Assembly: GCF_016820515.1 (NCBI RefSeq)
Contig: NZ_JADHDV010000004.1
Span: 62,001-126,000 of the forward strand
Source: Pseudoxanthomonas beigongshangi
GTDB taxonomy: Bacteria; Pseudomonadota; Gammaproteobacteria; Xanthomonadales; Xanthomonadaceae
Reading direction: 5' to 3'
Length of the DNA: 64,000 nt
Part shown: piece after piece, positions 32,933 through 43,948 of the stretch
Numbering within the stretch: the stretch's first letter is position 1
Layout of the letters: the number at the start of each line of letters is the position of its first letter
Notes under the pieces: model-generated
What the model saw: only the letters and a program-made list of their open reading frames with translations
Databases searched by the model: none
What the model was told of the DNA's origin: nothing
Made by a program: the position numbers and the translations under genes

Positions 32933-34933
32933 TCAGGTTAGCCCTTCCGCCCCTAGACGCCACCCCAACCCCGACCACCGGCTCGCGTGCCTCGCCAGTG
33001 CTTCGCGGATCACCGCTTCGCCACCGGCCACGTGCAGTTCGCGGCGGGCGCGGGTAAGGCCGGTGTAAACCAGTTCGCGCGAGAGCACGCGGTTGGTGCG
33101 GGCGGGGAGCAGCAGCCAGACGGTGTCGAACTCCGAGCCCTGGGCCTTGTGCACGGTCATGGCGAAAGCGGATTCGTGCGCGGGCAGGGCGGCGGGATGG
33201 AAGGCGCGTGGCTGGGCCGGGTCGTCGCCGGGGAACCAGGCGGCGAGCGCGCCCTGTTCGTCCCTCAGGCAGATGCCGATATCGCCATTGAACAGGCGGT
33301 GGCGGTAGCTGTTCTCGGTGACGATGAGCAGTTGGCCGTGGAAGTGGCCCTGCCCGGCGGCGCGGGGCAGGCCGGCGCCCTGGCTTTCCAGCAGCAGGCG
33401 TTCGATGCGTGCATTGAGCGTGCGCGCGCCCTGCGGGCCTTCGCGCACGGCGGTGAGGATGCGCAGGCGGCTGGAGAGTGCCAGCGCCTGTGCGGGCGTG
33501 GTCGCGGTCGCCAACGCTTGCCAGTGGGCGAGCAAGGCGTCCTGCTGGGTTTGCAGCGGGTCGGCGAGGTTTTCGTGGAAGTGGACGTTGGACAGTTCGC
33601 CGGCGCGCAGCAGGGCGAGCGTGGTGTCGACATCGCCTGCGCGCACGGCGTCGGCGAGGGGAGCGAGTTGCAGCGACTCGCTCTGGCGCCAGCCACGCTG
33701 GAGATGGACGCGGATGCCGGAAAACGTTTCCTGCGTGCCCGGGTGCGGGTCGCTGCCTTCGCCGGGACGATGGGCGATCCCGTCGATGGCGGCGGCGAGG
33801 ATGGCGGACAGGACGTCGCCCGCCTCCACCGAGGGCAGCTGATCCGGATCGCCCAGCAGCACCAGCCGTGAGCCGTCGGGGATGGCGTCGACCAGCTTGG
33901 CCATCAGTGGCAGATCGACCATGGAGGCTTCGTCCACGACCACGACGTCGAACGGCAAGGGATGATCGGCGTCGTGGCGGAAGCGCGGTGAGTCGGGAAT
34001 CGTGCCGAGCAGGCGATGCAGGGTGGTGCCGGTGGTGGGCAATGCGGAAAGCAGGTCGGCGTCGATGCCGGCGGCGGCCAGTGCCTGGATGGCATGGCGC
34101 ACGCTTTCGGCCATGCGCTCGGCGGCGCGTCCGGTGGGCGCGGCCAGGGCGATGCGCGGCAGCGGGTGGCCGACATCGCGCGCCTGTGCCGCGAGCAGCA
34201 CCAGCAGGCGCGCGGTGGTAGTGGTCTTGCCGGTGCCGGGGCCGCCAGTGACGAGCAGGAGGCTGTGATGGAGGGCGAGGGTGGCGGCCAGTGCCTGGTG
34301 ATCGATGGTCGTGTTGCCCCCATCCGCCCTTCGGGCACCTTCCCCCGCAGGCGGGGGAAGGGATTTGTTGGGTTCAGCACCAAATTGCTCTTCCGCGAAT
34401 AGAGGAAGTGTCTGATTCTTCTCTACCTTGAGCCCTTCCCCCGCGTGCGGGGAAAGGGTTGGGATGGGGACACCCGGAAACAGCCGAACAAACAACGCAT
34501 CAAGCGCGGACACTTCTCCCGCATCAACTCGATGCGCCGCGATACGCCGCAGACCCTCCGCCAGTTGGCGTTCGTATTCGCGATAACGACGCAGGTAGAG
34601 CAGTCCCCGCTCCAGCACCAGCGGTGCATGCGGATCGGAAACGGCGACCGGATCATCCGGGGTGGCAACCCAGCGCGACGCCGCCAGTTGCGAAGCCCAC
34701 GTGTCCGCTGCCGGCCAGACGATATCGGCATCCGTCTCCAGCAGTGCCTGCGGCTGCGCGAGCAATAGCCCGGCATGGCCCTTGGACACGGCGAGCGAGG
34801 CGAACGCGGTGGCGGCGAGGACGTCGTCGGGAGTGTCGCGATCGAGACGGCGCAGGCTCTGGGCGAGCGCGTGATCGAGGGTGCGCAGGTGGCCGGCTTG
34901 CCAGAGGTTGGCGAGGAGGTTGTGGGTGTTCAT
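32933..34933 (-). CDS. recD: Exonuclease V subunit RecD, with REP-encoded linker
   Basis: A 666-residue 5'-3' helicase subunit of RecBCD, which repairs double-strand breaks and degrades linear DNA. Walker A (GGPGTGKT) is at 230-237, followed by the DEAS motif, the GDPDQLPSVEAGDVL motif and the C-terminal MTVHKAQGSEFDTVWLLLP motif. Between the N-terminal domain (to ~150) and Walker A, residues ~155-205 are encoded by two REP-type palindromes (34316-34362 and 34432-34471) read in frame, giving two PPPAGEG/SPHAGEG segments. The start overlaps the recB stop (ATGA). The enzyme is otherwise complete. Confidence 0.95.
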   Translation of the reverse strand: MNTHNLLANLWQAGHLRTLDHALAQSLRRLDRDTPDDVLAATAFASLAVSKGHAGLLLAQPQALLETDADIVWPAADTWASQLAASRWVATPDDPVAVSDPHAPLVLERGLLYLRRYREYERQLAEGLRRIAAHRVDAGEVSALDALFVRLFPGVPIPTLSPHAGEGLKVEKNQTLPLFAEEQFGAEPNKSLPPPAGEGARRADGGNTTIDHQALAATLALHHSLLLVTGGPGTGKTTTTARLLVLLAAQARDVGHPLPRIALAAPTGRAAERMAESVRHAIQALAAAGIDADLLSALPTTGTTLHRLLGTIPDSPRFRHDADHPLPFDVVVVDEASMVDLPLMAKLVDAIPDGSRLVLLGDPDQLPSVEAGDVLSAILAAAIDGIAHRPGEGSDPHPGTQETFSGIRVHLQRGWRQSESLQLAPLADAVRAGDVDTTLALLRAGELSNVHFHENLADPLQTQQDALLAHWQALATATTPAQALALSSRLRILTAVREGPQGARTLNARIERLLLESQGAGLPRAAGQGHFHGQLLIVTENSYRHRLFNGDIGICLRDEQGALAAWFPGDDPAQPRAFHPAALPAHESAFAMTVHKAQGSEFDTVWLLLPARTNRVLSRELVYTGLTRARRELHVAGGEAVIREALARHASRWSGLGWRLGAEGLT
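34316..34362 (-). repeat. REP-type palindrome inside recD
   Basis: CCTTCCCCCGC and GCGGGGGAAGG arms preceded by CCATCCGCCCTTCGGGCAC. The same sequence occurs in the mlaF-mlaE spacer at 43121-43168. It is translated in frame as SLPPPAGEGARRADGG. Confidence 0.85.
34432..34471 (-). repeat. Second REP-type palindrome inside recD
   Basis: GCCCTTCCCCCGCGTGCGGG followed by GAAAGGGTTGGGATGGGG, related to the other CCCCCGC palindromes. It is translated as IPTLSPHAGEG. Together with the first unit it brackets a short unique segment. Confidence 0.8.
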
Positions 34934-37900
34934 GCGCGATCACCTGCGCGGTTGCCCCCACCCCGGCCCTCCCCCGCTTGCGGGGGAGGGGGCAGATCGC
35001 GGGACGATGGAACGGAGCCGGCGAACAAGGCATCGAGTGCATGGACGAGTTCGGGAGCGAAGCGTTGGGCGTGGACGCCAGGCGAGGGATCCCGGGTGAG
35101 ATCCATGCCGCGGCAGAACAGGTAGCGCACGCCGCCGAAGTCGCGTACATAGTCATAGGCCTCGCCCAGCCGGAAACGCAGCCAGCGGTGCAGGGCCAGC
35201 GTGTAGATCAGCGCCTGCAGGTCGTATTCGCTGTGCGCCATCGCCTGCTGCATCGAGGCGGTGTCATAGCCGGGCAACTGGTTGGACTTGTAGTCCAGCA
35301 CGTACCAGCGTCCGTCCCGGCAATAGGTCAGATCGATCAGGCCGGTCATCAGGCCTTCCAGCCGCTGGCGCAGGCCGAACGCGTGCCGCTGGCGCAGCAC
35401 GCCATGCTCGTGCAGCAACGCGAGCAGCGCGGTGACCGGCGTGGAGGTCATGGCGAAATGGAATTCGATTTCCGCGCGGCGCATGTTCGGCGGCAGGTCG
35501 GCGAGGCGACCGCCTTCGGGCATCACCGTGCCCAGGGTATGGCCGATCAGCGGCACCAGCACGGCGAGGCCGTCGGCGACATCGGCTTCGGCATAGCCAC
35601 CCGCGCGCAGGGCGTCGGCGATGATCCGGTCCTGTCCGGCGGGCGCATCGTCGCCGGGTCGCCAGTCGCGCCAGGCAGCGAAGTCGGCGTCTTCCAGCGC
35701 GGCGTGCATGACCACGCCGAAGTGGCTGCCGGCGAAACGCGGATCGGCGGTGAAGACGGAAGCGGCGGTTTCGGCGCCGGCTTCGTCGACGTCGGCCACG
35801 CGGGTTTCGTCCTCGCCGCCGGGGTCGGCCTGGGTGGCGGCGGCCAGCGGGTCGGCGCCGGATTCGGCGTGGGCGAGCTGGGTGAAGCTGTAGACCCACC
35901 AGTCGGCGGCGATACGGCGGCGGGCGATGCGCGCGGGCGCCACGCCGGCGTCGTGTTCGGCAGGCAGGCGTGGCGGCGGCGGTTCGGCCGGGCCTTCGAC
36001 GATGCGGACATCGGCGTGCCCGCGCAGCGATTCGGCGCCGGCCAGCAGCGGCGCGAGGCGACTCCTGGCGAAGTCGGTGATGTCGCCCGCCGCGATCCAC
36101 AGCGCATGCTCGGCGCGGGTGAGGCCGACATAGAGCAGGCGTGCGTCCTCGGCCTGGCCATCGCCGGAAGCCGCGTCGCCGGCGGCCTTCCACGCCGGAT
36201 CCTCCTTGTCGATGCGCCAGCGCAACACGCGGCGGCCGCCTTCGTGCAGCACGCGGTAGCGGCCACTGTCCGGACGGCGCGTGCCGATGCCGGTGAAGGG
36301 CAGGTACACCAGCGGGTACTCCAGGCCCTTGCTCTTGTGCAGGGTGACGATCTGCACGCGGAGCGCGTCCGATTCCAGTCGCAGCAGCTGGGTCTCGTCG
36401 TCGGGATCGGCGTTGGCGATGCGCGCCTGCAACCAGTCGAGCAGGCCGTGCAGGCCGAGCGTGTGCGCGGCGGCTTCCTGCAACTGTTCGCCCAACTGCA
36501 GGTAGTTGGTCATGCGGCGCTCGCCGTCGATCAGGCCAAGCAGGCGTTCGGCCTGTTCGGCGCACAGGTCGGACACCAGCGCGAACGGACCGCTGCGCTG
36601 CCAGCGCTCGCGCCAGTGCAGCAGACGGGCCTGGTGGTGCCGCTGCGCGTCACCTTCGGTTTCCAGCGCGGCAATCGCGTGGGCGTCCTCGCCCAGCAGC
36701 ACGGTGGACAACGCGGTGCGCAGGCGGCCGCTGTCGGCCGGTTGCAGCAGCGCCAGCAGCAGGGTGCGCAGTTCATCGGCTTCGGTGGTCTCGAACAGGC
36801 TCTGCTTGCCGGCGGCGACGGCGGGCACGCCGGCGCGGGCGAGCGCCTGCTGCATGCGGGTGGCGTCGCGGTGGTTGCGCACCAGCACGGCGATGTCGCC
36901 GGGACGCACCGGACGGCCGTCGAGCAGCGCGCGGCCTTCGCGCGCGTCGTTCAATACGCGATGGATCTCGGCCACGCAGGCGGCGGTGGCGGCGTCGCGC
37001 GAGCCGTCGGCGCCGAGCGGCTGGCCATCCGCCTGGCGCAGCAGGCGCAGGGTCAACGCGGGCGCCGGTTCGCCATCGCGCAGATAGTCGGCGTCACCGC
37101 GCTTGCCGCCGGCATGCACGGGTTCGAACTGGATGCCGGGATGGAGAAAGGCGTCCTGCCCCGCCTCCCGCGCGCCGTCGTACAGCGCCTGGACGGCGCG
37201 CAGCACGCCGGGGCGCGAGCGGAAGTTGTGATCCAGCCGCGGCGCCTCGTCGGCTTCACCGCGCGCGAGCAGGTAGGTGGCCACGTCGCCGCCGCGGAAA
37301 CCGTAGATGGCCTGCTTGGGATCGCCAATCAGGAATAGCGCCGGCACGTCGCCGATCGCGCGCACCTCGTCCGAGTCGCCGAACACCCGCGCGAAGATGC
37401 GCCATTGGCGCTCGTCGGTGTCCTGGAATTCATCCACCAGCGCGACCCGGTACTGCGCGCGCAACCGCGCCACCAGCGCTTGCCGGTGCGGACCTTCCAG
37501 CGCTTCGGCGACGCCTTCGATCAGATCATCGTAGGTTCGCACGCGACGCAGCCGCCTGAGCGCGTCCAGGCGCTGGCGCGCCTCGGCGCGCAGGCGGTGC
37601 AGCAGGGCCGTGCGTTGCAGCAGCTGCACCCGCTGCCAGGCCGCATCGGCCTCGCACCAATCGCGCAAGGCGTCGAACAACGGCGACGCCGGCGCGCCGG
37701 CACCCTGCCCTTCCTTGCAGAAGCCGGCCAACGCGTCCGGCAACAGCTTCTGCACGTGGGTTTTGTCGGTGCGTGGCCAGTCGCCCAGCCGCGTGCCCGC
37801 CTGGAGTTCCTCGAACGCCTTGTCGAAGCTCGGCCGCTTCGCGCGCCGGCCATCGAACACCTTGTTGTCGAACGCAGCCGCAATCGCCGCGCGTGCGTCG

Positions 37901-38631
37901 GCCTGATGGTTGGTGATGGCCTGGATCAGATTCGCGGCGCGGGCCGCGCGCACGGCCTGTGTTTCAGCCTGCGCCCGCGGATCGGCATCGGGCGGTACCT
38001 GCGGATACAGCGGCAACGGTCCGCACAGCGCCGGCAGATCCCCGGCGAGCGCATCCGGTCCGTTCCACAGGCCCACCAGCGCGTCGGCGTCGGCCGGATC
38101 GGCCGCGTGCGCGCGCCACAGATCGGCGGCGACCTCGGCGTACAGATCGCGTGCGTTGCCGAGCAGTTCGAACGCATCGAAGCCCTGCCCGGTTTCCAGC
38201 GCGTGTTCGCGCAGCACGCGCGCGCAGAAACCGTGGATGGTGAAGATCGCGGCCAGATCGGTTTCCTCCGCCGCGATGCGCAGGCGGCGGGACAACTGGT
38301 CGGGAGTTTCCTCGCCGCGTTCGAGCTGGCGCTGGAGAATGCCGCGGGTCAGCGCGGCCTCGTGGCTGTCGTCGTTGCCGGCGAGCGTGCCGACGAGGCC
38401 GGCGGCCAGCGACAGGCGTTCGCGGATGCGCTTGCGCAGTTCCTGGGTGGCGGCCTCGGTGTAGGTCACCGCCAGCACCTGGCCCATGCGCAGGCGCTGT
38501 TCGACGATCAGGCGGGTGAACAGGGTGGCGAGCGTGTAGGTCTTGCCGGTGCCGGCGCTGGCTTCGATCAGCTGCACGCCATCGAGCGCGCGGGTCAGGT
38601 AGGCATCGGCCGCGGGCATGGTCGCGCTCAT
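34930..38631 (-). CDS. recB: Exonuclease V subunit RecB
   Basis: A 1233-residue 3'-5' helicase and nuclease subunit. Walker A is ASAGTGKT (24-31). Helicase motifs follow: VTYTEAATQELRKRIRERL, IHGFCARVLREHALE, ALVDEFQDTDERQW, IGDPKQAIYGFRGGD, LHKSKGLEYPLV and RLLYVGLTRAEHAL. The C-terminal nuclease motif is VLDYKSNQLPGYD (~1108-1120), intact for DNA cleavage. The start overlaps the recC stop (ATGA) and its stop overlaps recD. The last ~20 residues (DLPPPPQAGEGRGGG) are encoded by a CCCCCGC palindrome at 34953-34994, an acquired tail. Confidence 0.97.
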   Translation of the reverse strand: MSATMPAADAYLTRALDGVQLIEASAGTGKTYTLATLFTRLIVEQRLRMGQVLAVTYTEAATQELRKRIRERLSLAAGLVGTLAGNDDSHEAALTRGILQRQLERGEETPDQLSRRLRIAAEETDLAAIFTIHGFCARVLREHALETGQGFDAFELLGNARDLYAEVAADLWRAHAADPADADALVGLWNGPDALAGDLPALCGPLPLYPQVPPDADPRAQAETQAVRAARAANLIQAITNHQADARAAIAAAFDNKVFDGRRAKRPSFDKAFEELQAGTRLGDWPRTDKTHVQKLLPDALAGFCKEGQGAGAPASPLFDALRDWCEADAAWQRVQLLQRTALLHRLRAEARQRLDALRRLRRVRTYDDLIEGVAEALEGPHRQALVARLRAQYRVALVDEFQDTDERQWRIFARVFGDSDEVRAIGDVPALFLIGDPKQAIYGFRGGDVATYLLARGEADEAPRLDHNFRSRPGVLRAVQALYDGAREAGQDAFLHPGIQFEPVHAGGKRGDADYLRDGEPAPALTLRLLRQADGQPLGADGSRDAATAACVAEIHRVLNDAREGRALLDGRPVRPGDIAVLVRNHRDATRMQQALARAGVPAVAAGKQSLFETTEADELRTLLLALLQPADSGRLRTALSTVLLGEDAHAIAALETEGDAQRHHQARLLHWRERWQRSGPFALVSDLCAEQAERLLGLIDGERRMTNYLQLGEQLQEAAAHTLGLHGLLDWLQARIANADPDDETQLLRLESDALRVQIVTLHKSKGLEYPLVYLPFTGIGTRRPDSGRYRVLHEGGRRVLRWRIDKEDPAWKAAGDAASGDGQAEDARLLYVGLTRAEHALWIAAGDITDFARSRLAPLLAGAESLRGHADVRIVEGPAEPPPPRLPAEHDAGVAPARIARRRIAADWWVYSFTQLAHAESGADPLAAATQADPGGEDETRVADVDEAGAETAASVFTADPRFAGSHFGVVMHAALEDADFAAWRDWRPGDDAPAGQDRIIADALRAGGYAEADVADGLAVLVPLIGHTLGTVMPEGGRLADLPPNMRRAEIEFHFAMTSTPVTALLALLHEHGVLRQRHAFGLRQRLEGLMTGLIDLTYCRDGRWYVLDYKSNQLPGYDTASMQQAMAHSEYDLQALIYTLALHRWLRFRLGEAYDYVRDFGGVRYLFCRGMDLTRDPSPGVHAQRFAPELVHALDALFAGSVPSSRDLPPPPQAGEGRGGGNRAGDRA
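34953..34994 (-). repeat. REP-type palindrome in the 3' end of recB
   Basis: TGCCCCCACCCCGGCCCTCC then CCCGC...GCGGGGGAGGG. It is in the CCCTCCCCCGC subtype also seen at 43045-43086. It lies within the last codons of recB and adds a Gly/Pro-rich tail. Confidence 0.85.
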
Positions 38632-41600
38632 GCGGCGTCTCCTTCGCCGACGTCGCGATCGCGCGCATGGCCGCGCCGCACGAGGTCGTAGATCACCAGG
38701 CTGGTGTCTTCCAGCTGGCGATAGTCGGCTTCGTTGGCGAACGGGTCCCGACCGCGCAGTGCGAGCCGGATCGCCTCGCCCTCCCCTTCGGCCCAGCCGC
38801 CGTTGCCGTCGCCGTGCCAGCGCTTCCAGGCAACGCCGCGACGCTTCTCCGGATCGGCGTTCCAGATGTCCCAGCCGGTATAGGGCGCGAACCACAGCGG
38901 TTCGCGCAGGCCCCGGGCGTGCAGGGAAAGCAGTTGCCGCAGCGCATCGCGCGCCTGTGCCTCGTCCGGCGCGTCGATCACGTACGGGCCCGGACCATCG
39001 CCGCCGTCATGGAACTGCACCAGCGGCAGTCGCGCGCCGGCCGCGTTGGCGAGCAGCCAATCCAGGCCCCAGCGCAGCGCGGCGTTGCCGTTGATCGGGT
39101 CCGCGCGCATCCGCACCAGGCCGCGCGGATGCACGTCGGCGACGCGACCGTGCAGCTGCACATCGTCAATGCGGATCTCATAGCGCGCGGAGGTGACGAC
39201 GTCGTTCGCCAGCCAGTCGCGGCGCGCCTGCGCGAACGGGCGGATTTCCGCGAGCAGGGTTTCGAACTGGCGTTCGCCCAGCGCGCCGGAAGGCAGCAGC
39301 GCGCGGGCACGCAGGCGGGCGCGCAGGCCGGGCTCCTCGCCGGCGTCGAGCGCCTCGATCACCGCCTGTTGCAGGGCGGCGCGCTCCAGCCCGCGGCCGG
39401 GCAGCACCAGCGGTTCGACATCCTCGGCCTGTTCGATCGGCTCCGGCAGCCGCAGACCCAGCCGCTGGGCGAGGAACTGGCCGTGCGGATCGGCGAAGAA
39501 ACGACGCAGCGTGTCCAGCGACAATTCGGTGGCGGGCGTGTCCAGTGCCGGCAGCGGGCCGGCCAGCCACGGCGACAACGCGGCGCGCGCGCCACCCAGA
39601 CGATCCGCGGCCGGACGCCATTGCGCGCGATAACTGAAGCGGCGTGGTTCGTCGCCACCGAAGGCCGCCGGCGCGAACGGCTGCAAGGGATGCTGCACGA
39701 CCAGCGCTTTCCGCGCGGCCGGGTCGGCGTGGTACGCCGCCGCCGCGTCCAGCAGTTCGCTGACCAGCACCGAAGGCTCGCGGGCGCTGCCGTCGCGCGG
39801 ATCCGCGCCCTGGTAGCTGAGGTAGAACACATCCTGCGCGGCCGCGAACAGTTGCAGGAACAGGTAGCGATCGTCCTCGCGGGTGGAGCGGTCGCCATGC
39901 CGGCGGCGCTCGGTGCCCAGTTCGGCGGTGAGGCGGTTGAGGCCGGCGGCCGGATCCCGGTGCGGGAACTCGCCGTCGTTCATGCCGAGCAGGCAGGTCA
40001 CCCGGAATGGCAACAGCCGCATCGGCACCATCCGGCCCACGCTGATGCCGCCGGTGAGCAGCGGCGCGCGGGTGTCGGCTTCCGAGAGCAGTTCGGTGAA
40101 GTGCGCGCGCACCACTTCCGCCGGCACCTCGGCGTCGTGGCCGGCGGCCTCGGCGTCGCGGGCGAAGCGATCAATCAGCGTGCGCAGGCGATCCAGCGCG
40201 CGTTGCGCGCGCGGCGCAGCCGGGCGCTCCGGCAGCAGCGCGTCGAGCAGGCGCAACAGGCGTTCGCGCCACTGCGCGGGCGCCAGCGCCTGGCCCAGGT
40301 CGCGGCGCTGGCGGGCCAGTTCGCGCAGCAGGCGGATCAGGGTGTCGAGCGCATCGAGCGCGCCGCCTTCCAGCTCCGTCCACGGCGCGACCCCGGCGAT
40401 CTCGTCCGCGGCGCCGCTGGCGTGGCCCAGCAACAGCCGATCCAGCGCGAACTGCCAGGTGTAGGCGTCGTCGGCGGGCGCAGCGGACGCGGCGCGGTGC
40501 GCGGCGTCCAGGCCCCAGCGCGCGCCGGCCGCGCGCAGCCAGCCATGCAGGCGCTCGATGGCGTCGGTGTCCAGCTCGGCGGCCTCGGCCACCGGCGCGC
40601 TGGCCAGAAGATCGAGGATCTCGTCCAGGCCGAAGCGCGAGATCGGCAGCGCCAGCAGCCGCAGGAAGACCTCGGCCAGCGGTTCGCTGGCCAGCGGACT
40701 GGTGTCGGCCAGCGCCCACGGCAGCGCGTCGGCGTGGCCTTCACCGCCGAATACCGCGTCAAGGTAGGGCACGTAGGGATCGATGTCCGGCGCCAGCACC
40801 GCGATCTCGCGCGGCTGCAGCGGCGGATCGAATCGTTTGTCGTCCAGCAGCGCGCGCAGTTGGTCATGCAGTACCTGCACTTCCCGCAGGCGGGTGTGGC
40901 AGGCGTGGATCTGCAGGCCGGGATCCTGGCGATCCACCTGCCCGCGCGGCGGACCGGATGGCGCGGGACGACGATGGAACAGATCCCGCTGCATGCGGTG
41001 CAGCAGGCTGTCGGACAGACCGCCCTCGGCCAGGGTGGGCGCGGGGTCCTGTTCGGGATCGGCATAGGCGGCGATTTCGCCGGCCGGATGCACGACTTCG
41101 TAACTGCCGAGCACGGCCATGAAATCGCGACCGGCCGCGCCCCAGGCCTGCAACAGCGGGTTCTCGCCGGCTTGCCCGGCAAAGGGATCGGCCACGCCCG
41201 CGCGCAGGCGTTCGCCCAGTGTCTGCAGATCGCCCCAATACGCCTGGGTGGGCGTGGGCAGATAGAAATGCAGGGTGCCGGCGCGCGCCTGGGTGGCGAC
41301 CACGCGCAGCACGTCGGGCGAAATATTGAGGGTGGCGAAGGCGAACAGGCGCCCCGGCAAGCCGGCCGGCAGCGCCGAGTCGGGGCCGGCGAAGCGATCG
41401 AGATATTGCTGGATGCGGCGCGCGCGATGTTCGCGCCCGGCGGCGATGTGCCGCCACAGCAGCGCCTGCGGATCTTCCGGATCGGCGCCGGCTTCCCAGC
41501 GCAGCAGCCAGTCGCGACGCCAGGCCTGGTACTTCTCGAACACCCCGGCCAGCTCGCCGGCCAGCGCCCATGGCTTCACCGGGTCGCGACCGGCCAGATA

Positions 41601-41963
41601 GGCGCGCAGCGCCGCCAGCGCGGGCCGCGCCAGCAGCGCCGGATCGGTCAGCGCCGCGTACAGGCGCCAGCGCAGGCCGGCCGCGTCCAGATCCTCGCCT
41701 TCGCCGGGCACGTTGGCGGCCAGCGCGCGGGCGACGAATTCGCCAGGGGTCAGGAATTCCAGGTTCGCCGCCACCCCGTGTTCGGCCGCCAGCGTGGCCT
41801 GCAGCCAGCGCCGCATCGCCACCTGCGGAATCAGCACCAGCTCCGGCGCCAGCAACGGCTGTCCGGGCACGGGCCGGCGCAGCTCGGCCGCCAACAGGCC
41901 CGCCAGCACGTCCAGGGAATTGGAGTGGTAGAGGCGGAAGTCGGGCATCGCGGCGTCGGGCAT
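38628..41963 (-). CDS. recC: Exonuclease V subunit RecC
   Basis: A 1111-residue subunit that recognises Chi and organises the RecBCD complex. The N-terminus (FRLYHSNSLDVLAGLL), the vestigial helicase region (PQVAMRRWLQATLAAEHGVA, GEFVARALAANVPGEG) and the motifs LSYQGADPRDGSAREPSVLV and LGMNDGEFPHRDPAAGLNRL are characteristic. The first start is ATG 41963; a second ATG at 41948 would give the more typical MPDFRLYHS. It is the first gene of recC-recB-recD, each coupled by ATGA. The order recC-recB-recD is usual in this group (ptrA is absent). Confidence 0.96.
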   Translation of the reverse strand: MPDAAMPDFRLYHSNSLDVLAGLLAAELRRPVPGQPLLAPELVLIPQVAMRRWLQATLAAEHGVAANLEFLTPGEFVARALAANVPGEGEDLDAAGLRWRLYAALTDPALLARPALAALRAYLAGRDPVKPWALAGELAGVFEKYQAWRRDWLLRWEAGADPEDPQALLWRHIAAGREHRARRIQQYLDRFAGPDSALPAGLPGRLFAFATLNISPDVLRVVATQARAGTLHFYLPTPTQAYWGDLQTLGERLRAGVADPFAGQAGENPLLQAWGAAGRDFMAVLGSYEVVHPAGEIAAYADPEQDPAPTLAEGGLSDSLLHRMQRDLFHRRPAPSGPPRGQVDRQDPGLQIHACHTRLREVQVLHDQLRALLDDKRFDPPLQPREIAVLAPDIDPYVPYLDAVFGGEGHADALPWALADTSPLASEPLAEVFLRLLALPISRFGLDEILDLLASAPVAEAAELDTDAIERLHGWLRAAGARWGLDAAHRAASAAPADDAYTWQFALDRLLLGHASGAADEIAGVAPWTELEGGALDALDTLIRLLRELARQRRDLGQALAPAQWRERLLRLLDALLPERPAAPRAQRALDRLRTLIDRFARDAEAAGHDAEVPAEVVRAHFTELLSEADTRAPLLTGGISVGRMVPMRLLPFRVTCLLGMNDGEFPHRDPAAGLNRLTAELGTERRRHGDRSTREDDRYLFLQLFAAAQDVFYLSYQGADPRDGSAREPSVLVSELLDAAAAYHADPAARKALVVQHPLQPFAPAAFGGDEPRRFSYRAQWRPAADRLGGARAALSPWLAGPLPALDTPATELSLDTLRRFFADPHGQFLAQRLGLRLPEPIEQAEDVEPLVLPGRGLERAALQQAVIEALDAGEEPGLRARLRARALLPSGALGERQFETLLAEIRPFAQARRDWLANDVVTSARYEIRIDDVQLHGRVADVHPRGLVRMRADPINGNAALRWGLDWLLANAAGARLPLVQFHDGGDGPGPYVIDAPDEAQARDALRQLLSLHARGLREPLWFAPYTGWDIWNADPEKRRGVAWKRWHGDGNGGWAEGEGEAIRLALRGRDPFANEADYRQLEDTSLVIYDLVRRGHARDRDVGEGDAA

Positions 41964-42183: not shown

Positions 42184-42975
42184 ATGACATCCGCCGACAC
42201 ACCCGCCGTGCGCCTGTCCGATGTCCGCCTCGATCGCGGCGGACGCGCCATCCTGCGCGACATCGCGCTGACGGTGCCGCGCGGCAGCATCACCGCCGTG
42301 CTCGGTCCCAGCGGCAGCGGCAAGTCCACCCTGCTGGCGGCGCTGACCGGCGAACTGCCGCCGGCCGCGGGCCAGGTGGAAGTGTTCGGCCAGGCCGTGC
42401 CGCGCCGCAGCCACGCGCTGCTGGAGATGCGCAAGGGTATCGGTGTGCTGTTGCAGGGCAATGGCCTGCTCACCGATCTGACCGTGGCCGAGAACGTGGC
42501 GCTGCCGCTGCGCACCCACACCCGGCTGGCCGCGCCGCTGATCCGGCGCCTGGTCGAGTTCAAGTTGAACGCGGTCGGCCTGCGCGCCGCCGCCGATCTG
42601 TATCCGCGCGAACTGTCCGGCGGCATGGCCCGCCGGGTCGCGCTGGCGCGCGCCCTGGCGCTGGATCCGCCGCTGATGATCTACGACGAGCCGCTGACCG
42701 GACTGGATCCCATCGCCAGCGGCGTGATCATGAGCCTGATCCAGCGCCTCAACGACACCCTGGGGCTGACCAGCATCATCGTCACCCACCACGTCCACGA
42801 AACCCTGCCGATCGCCGACCAGGCGCTGGTGATCGCCAACGGCGGCCTGGTGTTCACCGGTACGCCGGCCGAACTGGAGAACACCGGCGACCCGCTGGTG
42901 CGCCAGTTCCTGCGCGGCGAACCGGATGGCCCGATCGCATTCGATGCGGTCAAGCGCGTGGGGGAAGCCGCTTGA
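42184..42975 (+). CDS. mlaF: MlaF, ABC transporter ATPase for phospholipid transport
   Basis: A 263-residue ATPase of the Mla system, which moves phospholipids between outer and inner membranes and preserves outer-membrane asymmetry. Walker A is GPSGSGKST (41-49), the signature is LSGGMARR (~144-151), and Walker B is LMIYDEPLTGLDP (~163-175), followed by the His switch (VTHH). It opens the mla operon. A 220-bp spacer with REP-type palindromes separates it from mlaE. Confidence 0.94.
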   Translation: MTSADTPAVRLSDVRLDRGGRAILRDIALTVPRGSITAVLGPSGSGKSTLLAALTGELPPAAGQVEVFGQAVPRRSHALLEMRKGIGVLLQGNGLLTDLTVAENVALPLRTHTRLAAPLIRRLVEFKLNAVGLRAAADLYPRELSGGMARRVALARALALDPPLMIYDEPLTGLDPIASGVIMSLIQRLNDTLGLTSIIVTHHVHETLPIADQALVIANGGLVFTGTPAELENTGDPLVRQFLRGEPDGPIAFDAVKRVGEAA

Positions 42976-43195
42976 AGCCGGGAAGCGGGAAGCGGGAAGC
43001 GGGAATCGAAGCCGTGCACGGCCGCCTTGCCGCACTCATAAATAGCCCCCTCCCCCGCGACGCGGGGGAGGGTTGGGGTGGGGGCAGGGATGAAGACGTA
43101 TTCGTCCAGGTTCCTGCATTTGCCCCCATCCGCCCTTCGGGCACCTTCCCCCGCCAGCGGGGGAAGGGACTGCGGCCTAAGGGAGGGATCCACTG
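42976..43195 (+). repeat. mlaF-mlaE spacer with tandem repeats and two REP-type palindromes
   Basis: Three exact copies of GGGAAGC (42980-43000) followed by GGGAATC form a short tandem array. A CCCTCCCCCGC palindrome (43045-43086) and a CCATCCGCCC-type palindrome (43121-43168, matching the recD insertion) follow. GGGAGGGA before ATG 43196 may serve as the ribosome site. These elements lie inside an operon and may affect mRNA folding between the two genes. Confidence 0.8.
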
Positions 43196-43948
43196 ATGCC
43201 GTTCATTGCCGCCACCCGTTCGCTTGGCCGTGCGGGGCTGTTCTCGCTGTCGGTGTTCCGGGCCTCGGCGCCGACCCGTGATTTCTTCGCCGAGCTGACC
43301 CGCGAGATCTACAAGATCGGCGGGCGCTCGTTGCCGATCATCGCGGTCGGCGGCGCGTTCGTGGGGCTGGTGCTGACCCTGCAGGGCTATCGCACCCTGA
43401 CCACGTTCGGCGCCTCCGACGCGCTGTCGACGCTGCTGGGCCTGTCGCTGTACCGCGAACTGGGTCCGGTGCTGACCGCGCTGCTGTTCATCGGCCGCGC
43501 CGGCAGTTCGATTGCCGCCGAGCTGGGCCTGATGCGCGCCACCGATCAGATCAAGGCGCTCGAGCTGATGGCCATCGATCCGGTCGCCAAGGCGGTCGCG
43601 CCGCGCTTCTGGGCGGCGGTGCTGACGGTACCACTGCTGACCGGTTTCTTCTGCAGCCTGGCGATCAGCGCCAGCTACTTCGAAGCCGTGCACGTGCTGG
43701 GCCTGGACAACGGCACGTTCTGGTCCGCGTTGCAGAACAGCGTGGATTTCTGGGACGACTTCGGCGTGGCGCTGCTGAAGTCGGCGGTGTTCGGCGGCAC
43801 CAGCGCGCTGGTCGCGGCCTACGTGGGCTACCACGCCGAACCGACCATCGAGGGCACCTCGGTGGCGACCACCCGCGCGGTGGTGAACGCCTCACTGCTG
43901 GTGCTGATGTTCAATTTCGTCCTTTCCGCCCTGCTTTTCCGGAGTTGA
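43196..43948 (+). CDS. mlaE: MlaE, phospholipid ABC permease
   Basis: A 250-residue polytopic permease. The MlaE/permease signature includes GRSLPIIAVGGAFVGLVLTL, LGPVLTALLFIGRAGSSIAAELG and LGLMRATDQIKALELMAIDP, with about five membrane segments. It pairs with MlaF as the energised core of the MlaFEDB complex in the inner membrane. The start ATG 43196 is 220 bp after the mlaF stop and next to a GGGAGGGA site. Confidence 0.95.
   Translation: MPFIAATRSLGRAGLFSLSVFRASAPTRDFFAELTREIYKIGGRSLPIIAVGGAFVGLVLTLQGYRTLTTFGASDALSTLLGLSLYRELGPVLTALLFIGRAGSSIAAELGLMRATDQIKALELMAIDPVAKAVAPRFWAAVLTVPLLTGFFCSLAISASYFEAVHVLGLDNGTFWSALQNSVDFWDDFGVALLKSAVFGGTSALVAAYVGYHAEPTIEGTSVATTRAVVNASLLVLMFNFVLSALLFRS

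Follow-up and report, generated by a model that had tools for sequence, protein, structure and literature searches.

In-frame repeats inside genes, those of recBCD included, are already published. In the main text of Di Nocera et al. 2013 (PMC3733652), intragenic REPs of the GTAG and CGTC types are described, also in recBCD genes, and REPs are found at about the same recB site in X. campestris and X. oryzae. The authors propose that such segments form loops or linkers and doubt that their presence in repair genes is a coincidence. The string "recd" does not occur in the main text of that article (Figure 7B and the supplements lie outside this count), and its sections on intragenic REPs do not discuss a clamp motif. 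According to excerpts of PMC2229807, Rickettsia palindromic elements (RPE) are fused in frame in conserved genes and are tolerated by the protein. As for the enzyme itself, E. coli RecBCD was reported in 2026, as a novel finding, to bind the beta sliding clamp via the sequence QVEMEF in the nuclease domain of RecB (PMC13254535, in the part of the text available). The clamp consensus Q-phi-x-[L/M]-[F/L] and a hexamer are given in excerpts of PMC11139829, which also describe the motif AMSLF with a preceding Gln in the clamp-loader subunit delta and state that isolated delta peptides compete poorly.

The recD gene considered here resembles the genes with REPs of PMC3733652, as far as that text goes, in that short palindromic repeats stand in the coding region of a DNA-repair gene; unlike those REPs, its palindromes have no GTAG or CGTC head. 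With the RPE, as excerpted, it shares in-frame palindromic repeats tolerated in conserved genes, but the RPE are elements of 105–146 bp in Rickettsia, whereas the repeats here are units of about 25–55 bp in Xanthomonadaceae and form an inverted pair in RecD. Because repeats within recBCD genes are published in the main text of PMC3733652, the RecD insertion itself is a fresh case of a known phenomenon. The new parts are the recurrence of repeats at RecD and a conserved clamp-like motif in a repeat-built tether, the latter being a testable proposal drawn from sequence. The literature searched, which was mostly without subscription papers and supplements, described neither a clamp motif in RecD nor the present insert. 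The features of the window, i.e., of the whole analysed stretch of 64,000 nucleotides, are as follows.

32933–34933, minus strand: recD, the alpha subunit of RecBCD, 666 aa (open reading frame, TIGR01447, phmmer, Foldseek).
34316–34471, minus strand: in-frame insert of 156 nt, residues about 155–206, at the junction of the N-terminal domain and the helicase domain (palindromes absent from 32/34 congeneric RecDs; pLDDT).
34431–34471, minus strand: palindrome copy 1 with a flanking arm, read PIPTLSPHAGEG.
34363–34432, minus strand: 70-nt spacer separating the RecD palindromes.
34385–34417, minus strand: codons of NQTLPLFAEEQ, a putative clamp-binding short motif (codon comparison of the window with RX3).
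34311–34362, minus strand: palindrome copy 2, which includes the GCCCTTCGGGC hairpin and is translated as SLPPPAGEGARRADGG.
34953–34994, minus strand: third palindrome, inside the 3' end of recB, read PPPPQAGEGRGGG as the RecB C-terminal tail.
43045–43168, no strand given: two intergenic copies of the same repeat kind, for comparison.

The initial annotation had stated that recD carries two palindromes translated in frame, and this was borne out, with the peptides as described. The open frame of 666 aa runs uninterrupted through both palindromes (ORF list), and the product matched TIGR01447 (543.5 bits, 6.5e-163, residues 8–660), E. coli RecD 1w36_D by phmmer (3.3e-78, residues 210–657) and, as the best Foldseek match, RecBCD chain D 5ld2_D (3.1e-44). 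The palindromes proper, 34337–34362 and 34433–34458, have 1 mismatch each to CCCTTCCCCCGCNNGCGGGGGAAGGG and form inverted arms of 25 nt, 92% complementary and 70 nt apart. The equivalent of the insert site in E. coli RecD lies between residues 145 and 151. In an AlphaFold model of the RecD monomer alone, based on a 20-sequence alignment (A1), pLDDT was below 50 at residues 159–208, with helices 141–151 and 212–222 on either side; the insert is predicted to be a disordered interdomain segment. An assembly or frameshift artefact was ruled out by the intact frame in three separate genomes.

The search for congeneric RecDs covered 36 genomes in addition to the present one; G006 gave no match and G034 a partial one, which left 34 RecDs for comparison. 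Alignment with these relatives showed that the palindromes are absent from 32 of them and present only in the nearest named relatives by RecD, Pseudoxanthomonas sp. z9 (L078) and the Pseudoxanthomonas MAG RX3 (L077), at the same place as in the window. The RecD loop comprises 58 residues in the window vs. 6 in the nearest Pseudoxanthomonas relatives without the insert (52 codons more). Most of the 32 insert-free RecDs had 6–7 loop residues; the loops of L018, L026 and L108 had 13, 16 and 20, also without palindromes. The length of the insert, for which variation among strains had been considered, does vary: z9 has 24 extra codons inside palindrome 1, in frame and with a GCGCGGC/GCCGCGC hairpin, and RX3 has 8 extra codons inside palindrome 2, likewise in frame. 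A search of RecD orthologues for the same residues without repeat-like DNA did not refute the earlier reading.

With up to 3 mismatches allowed, the CCCTTCCCCCGCNNGCGGGGGAAGGG-type palindrome had 4 matches in the window, whereas 100 dinucleotide shuffles gave 0. In the whole genome, the pattern with up to 2 mismatches was found 112 times on the forward and 113 times on the reverse strand (reversed-pattern control, 0 and 1). The RecD insert used as a query gave 117 matches in its own genome, itself included; both of its repeat parts matched many other places with 78–100% identity, and 34375–34428 (query positions 66–119, most of the spacer) had no other match in the genome, by which a REPIN-like unit with a conserved spacer was ruled out. 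The shared arm GGTGCCCGAAGGGCGGRTGRGGG was present in 17 of the 18 genomes searched, at 1 to 61 places each (control, 0 in all 18), and occurs also in genomes with an empty RecD loop. The recD palindromes had further been said to match copies in intergenic spacers. This held for 43045–43168, which sits between the plus-strand open frames 42184–42975 and 43196–43948, but not for 34953–34994, which lies inside recB and codes for the RecB tail.

A string search of the four stretches with copies revealed no GTAG head at the repeats; the sole GTAG (minus strand, 34423–34426) is in the spacer near palindrome 1 and is not kept in RX3. GTGG was present in two arms, that of one intergenic copy (43078) and, as CCAC, that of the RecB-tail copy (34958); the same search did not find it at both copies of the RecD insert. 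No CGTC was found in the four stretches, and one GACG at 43059 is in the loop of an intergenic palindrome. For the two PF01797 (IS200-like) genes found in the genome, the surrounding sequence, to a distance of about 1.5 kb, contained no copy of this palindrome, and inspection showed both genes to be flanked by other repeats, GTGG- and GTAG-headed. Since both of these Y1-type transposase genes stand between other repeats and lack this palindrome nearby, a RAYT origin was not adopted and the recD repeats are not called RAYT REPs here. The two genes themselves (L197 and L198; G000 C23:137406 and C1:29507), flanked by GTGGGAGCGAC and GTAGAGCGGAGC palindromes, are likely RAYT units.

The recB coding region ends at 34930, its stop overlapping the recD start, and the palindrome 34953–34994 is translated within the RecB tail, DLPPPPQAGEGRGGGNRAGDRA up to the stop. 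The RecB tails of z9 and RX3 are similar to that of the window. Based on a repeat-peptide regular expression, RecB tails with translated repeats were found in 24 of 114 rows, of which 19 are distinct after removal of the duplicates L077, L078 and L117 and the loose matches L085 and L092. The RecB C-terminal region of L142 contains a long inserted tract of degenerate NPGSDPARNA-type repeats.

A frame-blind screen based on GC3 indicated in-frame copies also in ValS, a YheS-like ABC-F ATPase, an IcmF-like mutase and a TSCPD-domain protein, by which RecD as the only target of the repeat is ruled out. The screen covered 127 copies in 47 clusters, in fetched stretches only and with a regular expression looser than the whole-genome pattern. 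Its strict thresholds missed recD, relaxed thresholds recovered recD and recB, and doubtful frames (e.g., C17 plus strand, C23, C33, C6:43106) were left uncounted. At the last of these places (L037, G000 C6:43106), four palindrome copies follow one another, and both strands have long open frames there. The TSCPD-domain protein, which had 0 NCBIfam families at the cut-off, looked like the C-terminus of a B12-dependent ribonucleotide reductase, with Pfam TSCPD as the sole support. The YheS match was split at the insert in 9/9 congeneric genomes, stopping near 342 and resuming near 375 with 6 bases between (343 and 370 in G005). The ValS match was split near 525 and 576 in 7/9 and unbroken across the insert in the other two, G002 and G005. 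In G005, a copy of the repeat arm (C2:295716–295738) lies within the ValS-matching stretch, suggesting an in-frame copy of its own. For IcmF, the empty site is less clear because in 4 of the 11 matching relatives the alignment continued through the insert without a break. The composite repeat uses a single one of the six possible frames in recD and in the genes for YheS, IcmF, ValS and the TSCPD protein, where it gives LPPxAGEGARRADGG or a variant, while an intergenic copy is open in all six. The chance of five genes agreeing on a frame is (1/6)^4, about 0.0008, computed after the fact, and the agreement suggests that other readings were purged.

RecD was present in 390 of the 395 family genomes searched. 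Among the loci read, palindrome-derived peptides were found in the RecD interdomain loop of the genera coded g26 (Xanthomonas-like by its repeat-rich sequences and kinship), g36, g47, g48 and g62, of Luteimonas (L080) and of the window clade, and the DNA of these loops is lineage-specific. Part of the loci was chosen for matches reaching into the loop, so these fractions are not estimates of prevalence. A tree of 100 rows was built after leaving out 16 rows (duplicates, the frame-split L009 and L098) and 29 near-identical ones. It was obtained by a quick method without a mixture model and carries a long-branch warning that includes L094 with L128. On this tree, palindrome peptides in the RecD loop were present in 25/100 rows with at least 10 changes of state, as labelled by regular expressions that missed L118, whose loop contains repeat DNA. 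The site-1 motif was present in 18/100 rows with at least 4 changes, under looser labels that include TLPLF, NLELF and QLSLL. Beyond the published cases, repeats of this kind are present in several further lineages of the family, both in the RecD loop, for which the recurrence is well supported within the genomes read, and in the RecB tail.

Other RecD loops vary as well. The second loop (window 33720–33781, residues about 385–405), which is AHRPGEGSDPHPGTQ here, differs across relatives; L110, L006, L004 and L029 have RHPREGGDP or a similar sequence in it, which resembles the in-frame translation of a CGTC-type repeat. Tandem SEASPFSGR-type repeats occupy a third place, near window residue 557, in L108, L030 and L109.

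The spacer between the RecD palindromes codes for NQTLPLFAEEQ. This motif, absent from the initial annotation, carries the clearest sign of selection at the locus and is shared by three closely related genomes. Between the window and RX3, its 11 codons include 4 identical, 6 synonymous and 1 nonsynonymous, so that 10/11 residues are kept; the twelve other spacer codons tested include 1 identical, 0 synonymous and 11 nonsynonymous (Fisher p 0.00038, for this one pair and a motif noticed before testing). The comparison with z9, with one synonymous codon difference in the motif, is uninformative. Based on these codons, NQTLPLFAEEQ looks to be under purifying selection while its flanks diverge. 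In the same pair, 24/28 palindrome codons are identical vs. 275/449 in the helicase core, and the remainder of the gene is less identical than the palindromes (Fisher p 0.003); this DNA-level conservation of the palindromes could be repeat homogenisation. The earlier proposal that the repeats were domesticated as a linker therefore stands in part: the segment is in frame and predicted to be disordered, but the conservation of the palindromes could have this other cause and the clearest selection falls on the spacer motif.

TLPLF of the window fits the last four positions of the clamp motif, with Gln one place early, as in delta. It lacks Gln at position 1 of the consensus Q-phi-x-[L/M]-[F/L] and is not a strict clamp motif. 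Delta Q-AMSLF, as given in the excerpts of PMC11139829, and RecD Q-TLPLF have the same spacing of Gln, hydrophobic residues and Phe. The two differ in their setting. The clamp motif of delta is located in a folded domain, whereas the tether that holds the RecD candidate is predicted to be disordered.

The strict pattern Q.[DS][LM]F occurred 8 times in 110 RecDs (115 rows minus L009, L098, L117, L147 and L149), always in sparsely occupied columns (mean occupancy no higher than 26% of rows). Seven occurrences were wholly in the 2,097 loop residues and 0 in the 67,436 core residues. When the loops were shuffled internally 20,000 times, 7 was never reached (mean 0.009), the pattern having been chosen after examples were seen and related rows not being independent. 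Looser forms (Q-phi-x-[LM]-[FL] and the hexamer) occur also in the folded core of many RecDs, e.g., QLILL, and therefore only the strict form is informative. The strict motifs fall in three lineages: the g48 clade, L094 (Vulcaniibacterium) and L111–L113, which have QVDLF, QSDMF and QGDMF in the second RecD loop near window residue 396.

In g48, a Stenotrophomonas-like clade, 90 of 91 genomes had a match, and in the best-scoring 30 of the 90 loci the strict motif was found in 12/14 expanded loops (six of the 14 also belong to the set of 110) and in 0/16 short ones. The motifs are QGDLF, QSDLF, QPDLF, QLDLF and QADLF, with two in L212; QLDLF and QADLF match the consensus fully, and the other three have no aliphatic second residue. 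In part of the clade, the motif stands directly beside translated palindromes, as in SAQPDLFLLPLAGEGARRADEG, while L199–L202 and L204 have the motif without palindrome peptides.

The E. coli RecB–clamp contact, as described in the accessible part of PMC13254535, is similar to this case in that a short motif links RecBCD to the clamp, here with a candidate motif only. It differs in that QVEMEF belongs to the RecB nuclease domain, whereas here a loop of RecD contains the candidate, and RAEIEF and alike, without Gln, stand at the position in RecB. Across the family, the RecB hexapeptide is RAEIEF, RPEIEF, RNEMEF or similar, and Gln at position 1 was seen in none of the 111 rows where it was found (of 114, duplicates included). 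The motif is missing from the RecD interdomain loop in 82/100 tree rows (loose labels), so docking through RecD would not be general, and the Xanthomonas-like RecD loops read have repeats and no motif. With Gln missing in 111/111 RecBs, these counts do not support a RecD motif that replaces a lost RecB motif everywhere. The window RecC (ORF 38628–41963, minus strand) has QRDLF at residue 325, a position taken as folded core, and may hold another clamp site.

Based on the above results, we suggest that disordered tethers built from repeats present a beta-clamp docking motif on RecBCD, and we give this reading a probability of about 0.5. A family of short palindromic repeats has been inserted in frame into the loop between the N-terminal and helicase domains of RecD, where it now forms an inverted pair around the 70-nt spacer; this first step is shown by the sequence, the absence in relatives, the predicted disorder and the fact that other lineages have such repeats too. 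When translated, PIPTLSPHAGEG and LPPPAGEGARRADGG would serve as proline/glycine-rich spacers of a flexible tether, as their predicted disorder and composition suggest. The tether would display NQTLPLFAEEQ, and this motif would most likely attach RecBCD to the beta sliding clamp in the manner of delta Q-AMSLF or the QLDLF consensus. Such docking would link the resection of ends with the restart of replication. A clamp function is not required of the repeats themselves, because they are also present in proteins without a known link to the clamp. More tentatively, the Xanthomonadaceae RecD loop may be a repeatedly used docking site: repeats would lengthen the tether, clamp motifs (QLDLF, QADLF, QGDLF, Q-TLPLF) would evolve more than once, and the clamp contact of RecBCD would move from RecB to RecD in those lineages.

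It is also quite possible, at somewhat under even odds, that the insert is a neutral passenger. Copies would survive only where the peptide is harmless, as in a flexible interdomain loop, and have no function, the spacer being a residual. The in-frame copies of the same genome in ValS and in the YheS-like, IcmF-like and TSCPD-domain proteins, the matches split in congeneric genomes for YheS (9/9) and ValS (7/9), and the 32/34 congeneric RecDs that do without the insert are all consistent with this, and the common frame in five genes is what purging of harmful readings would give. Against a passenger speak the 10/11 motif residues kept despite 6 synonymous changes, a pattern not shared by the remaining spacer codons, and the canonical clamp motifs in the same RecD loop of another clade.

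The evidence of selection is independent of the partner, and the spacer motif could be selected for binding something other than the clamp, e.g., RecC, RecA, SSB or the helicase core. The departure of the window motif from the strict form agrees with such a partner. We nevertheless regard it as unlikely, since the three other lineages named above have strict Q.[DS][LM]F motifs, either in this loop of RecD or in a different one. Finally, a function at the RNA or DNA level is improbable. Here the inverted pair would form a strong hairpin in the mRNA and either slow down ribosomes between the two domains or adjust how much RecD the operon yields. The insert folds at −88.9 kcal/mol (z −5.37 vs. 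200 shuffles) and its palindrome codons are unusually identical, but with the extra sequence in z9 (palindrome 1) and RX3 (palindrome 2) the hairpin is no longer a plain one, the same folding is expected of every inverted pair of these repeats, the identity could stem from homogenisation among about 112 copies, and synonymous sites of the spacer motif are not conserved (6/11 codons changed).

If several lineages place a clamp motif in RecD, as the docking reading proposes, this would be independent evolutionary support for the interaction of RecBCD with the clamp. Palindromic repeats within genes need not be mere passengers and could build spacers around a working motif. Should the RecD loop prove to be a docking site used repeatedly in the Xanthomonadaceae, mobile repeats would have been the raw material for a regulatory linker in the main enzyme of double-strand-break repair.
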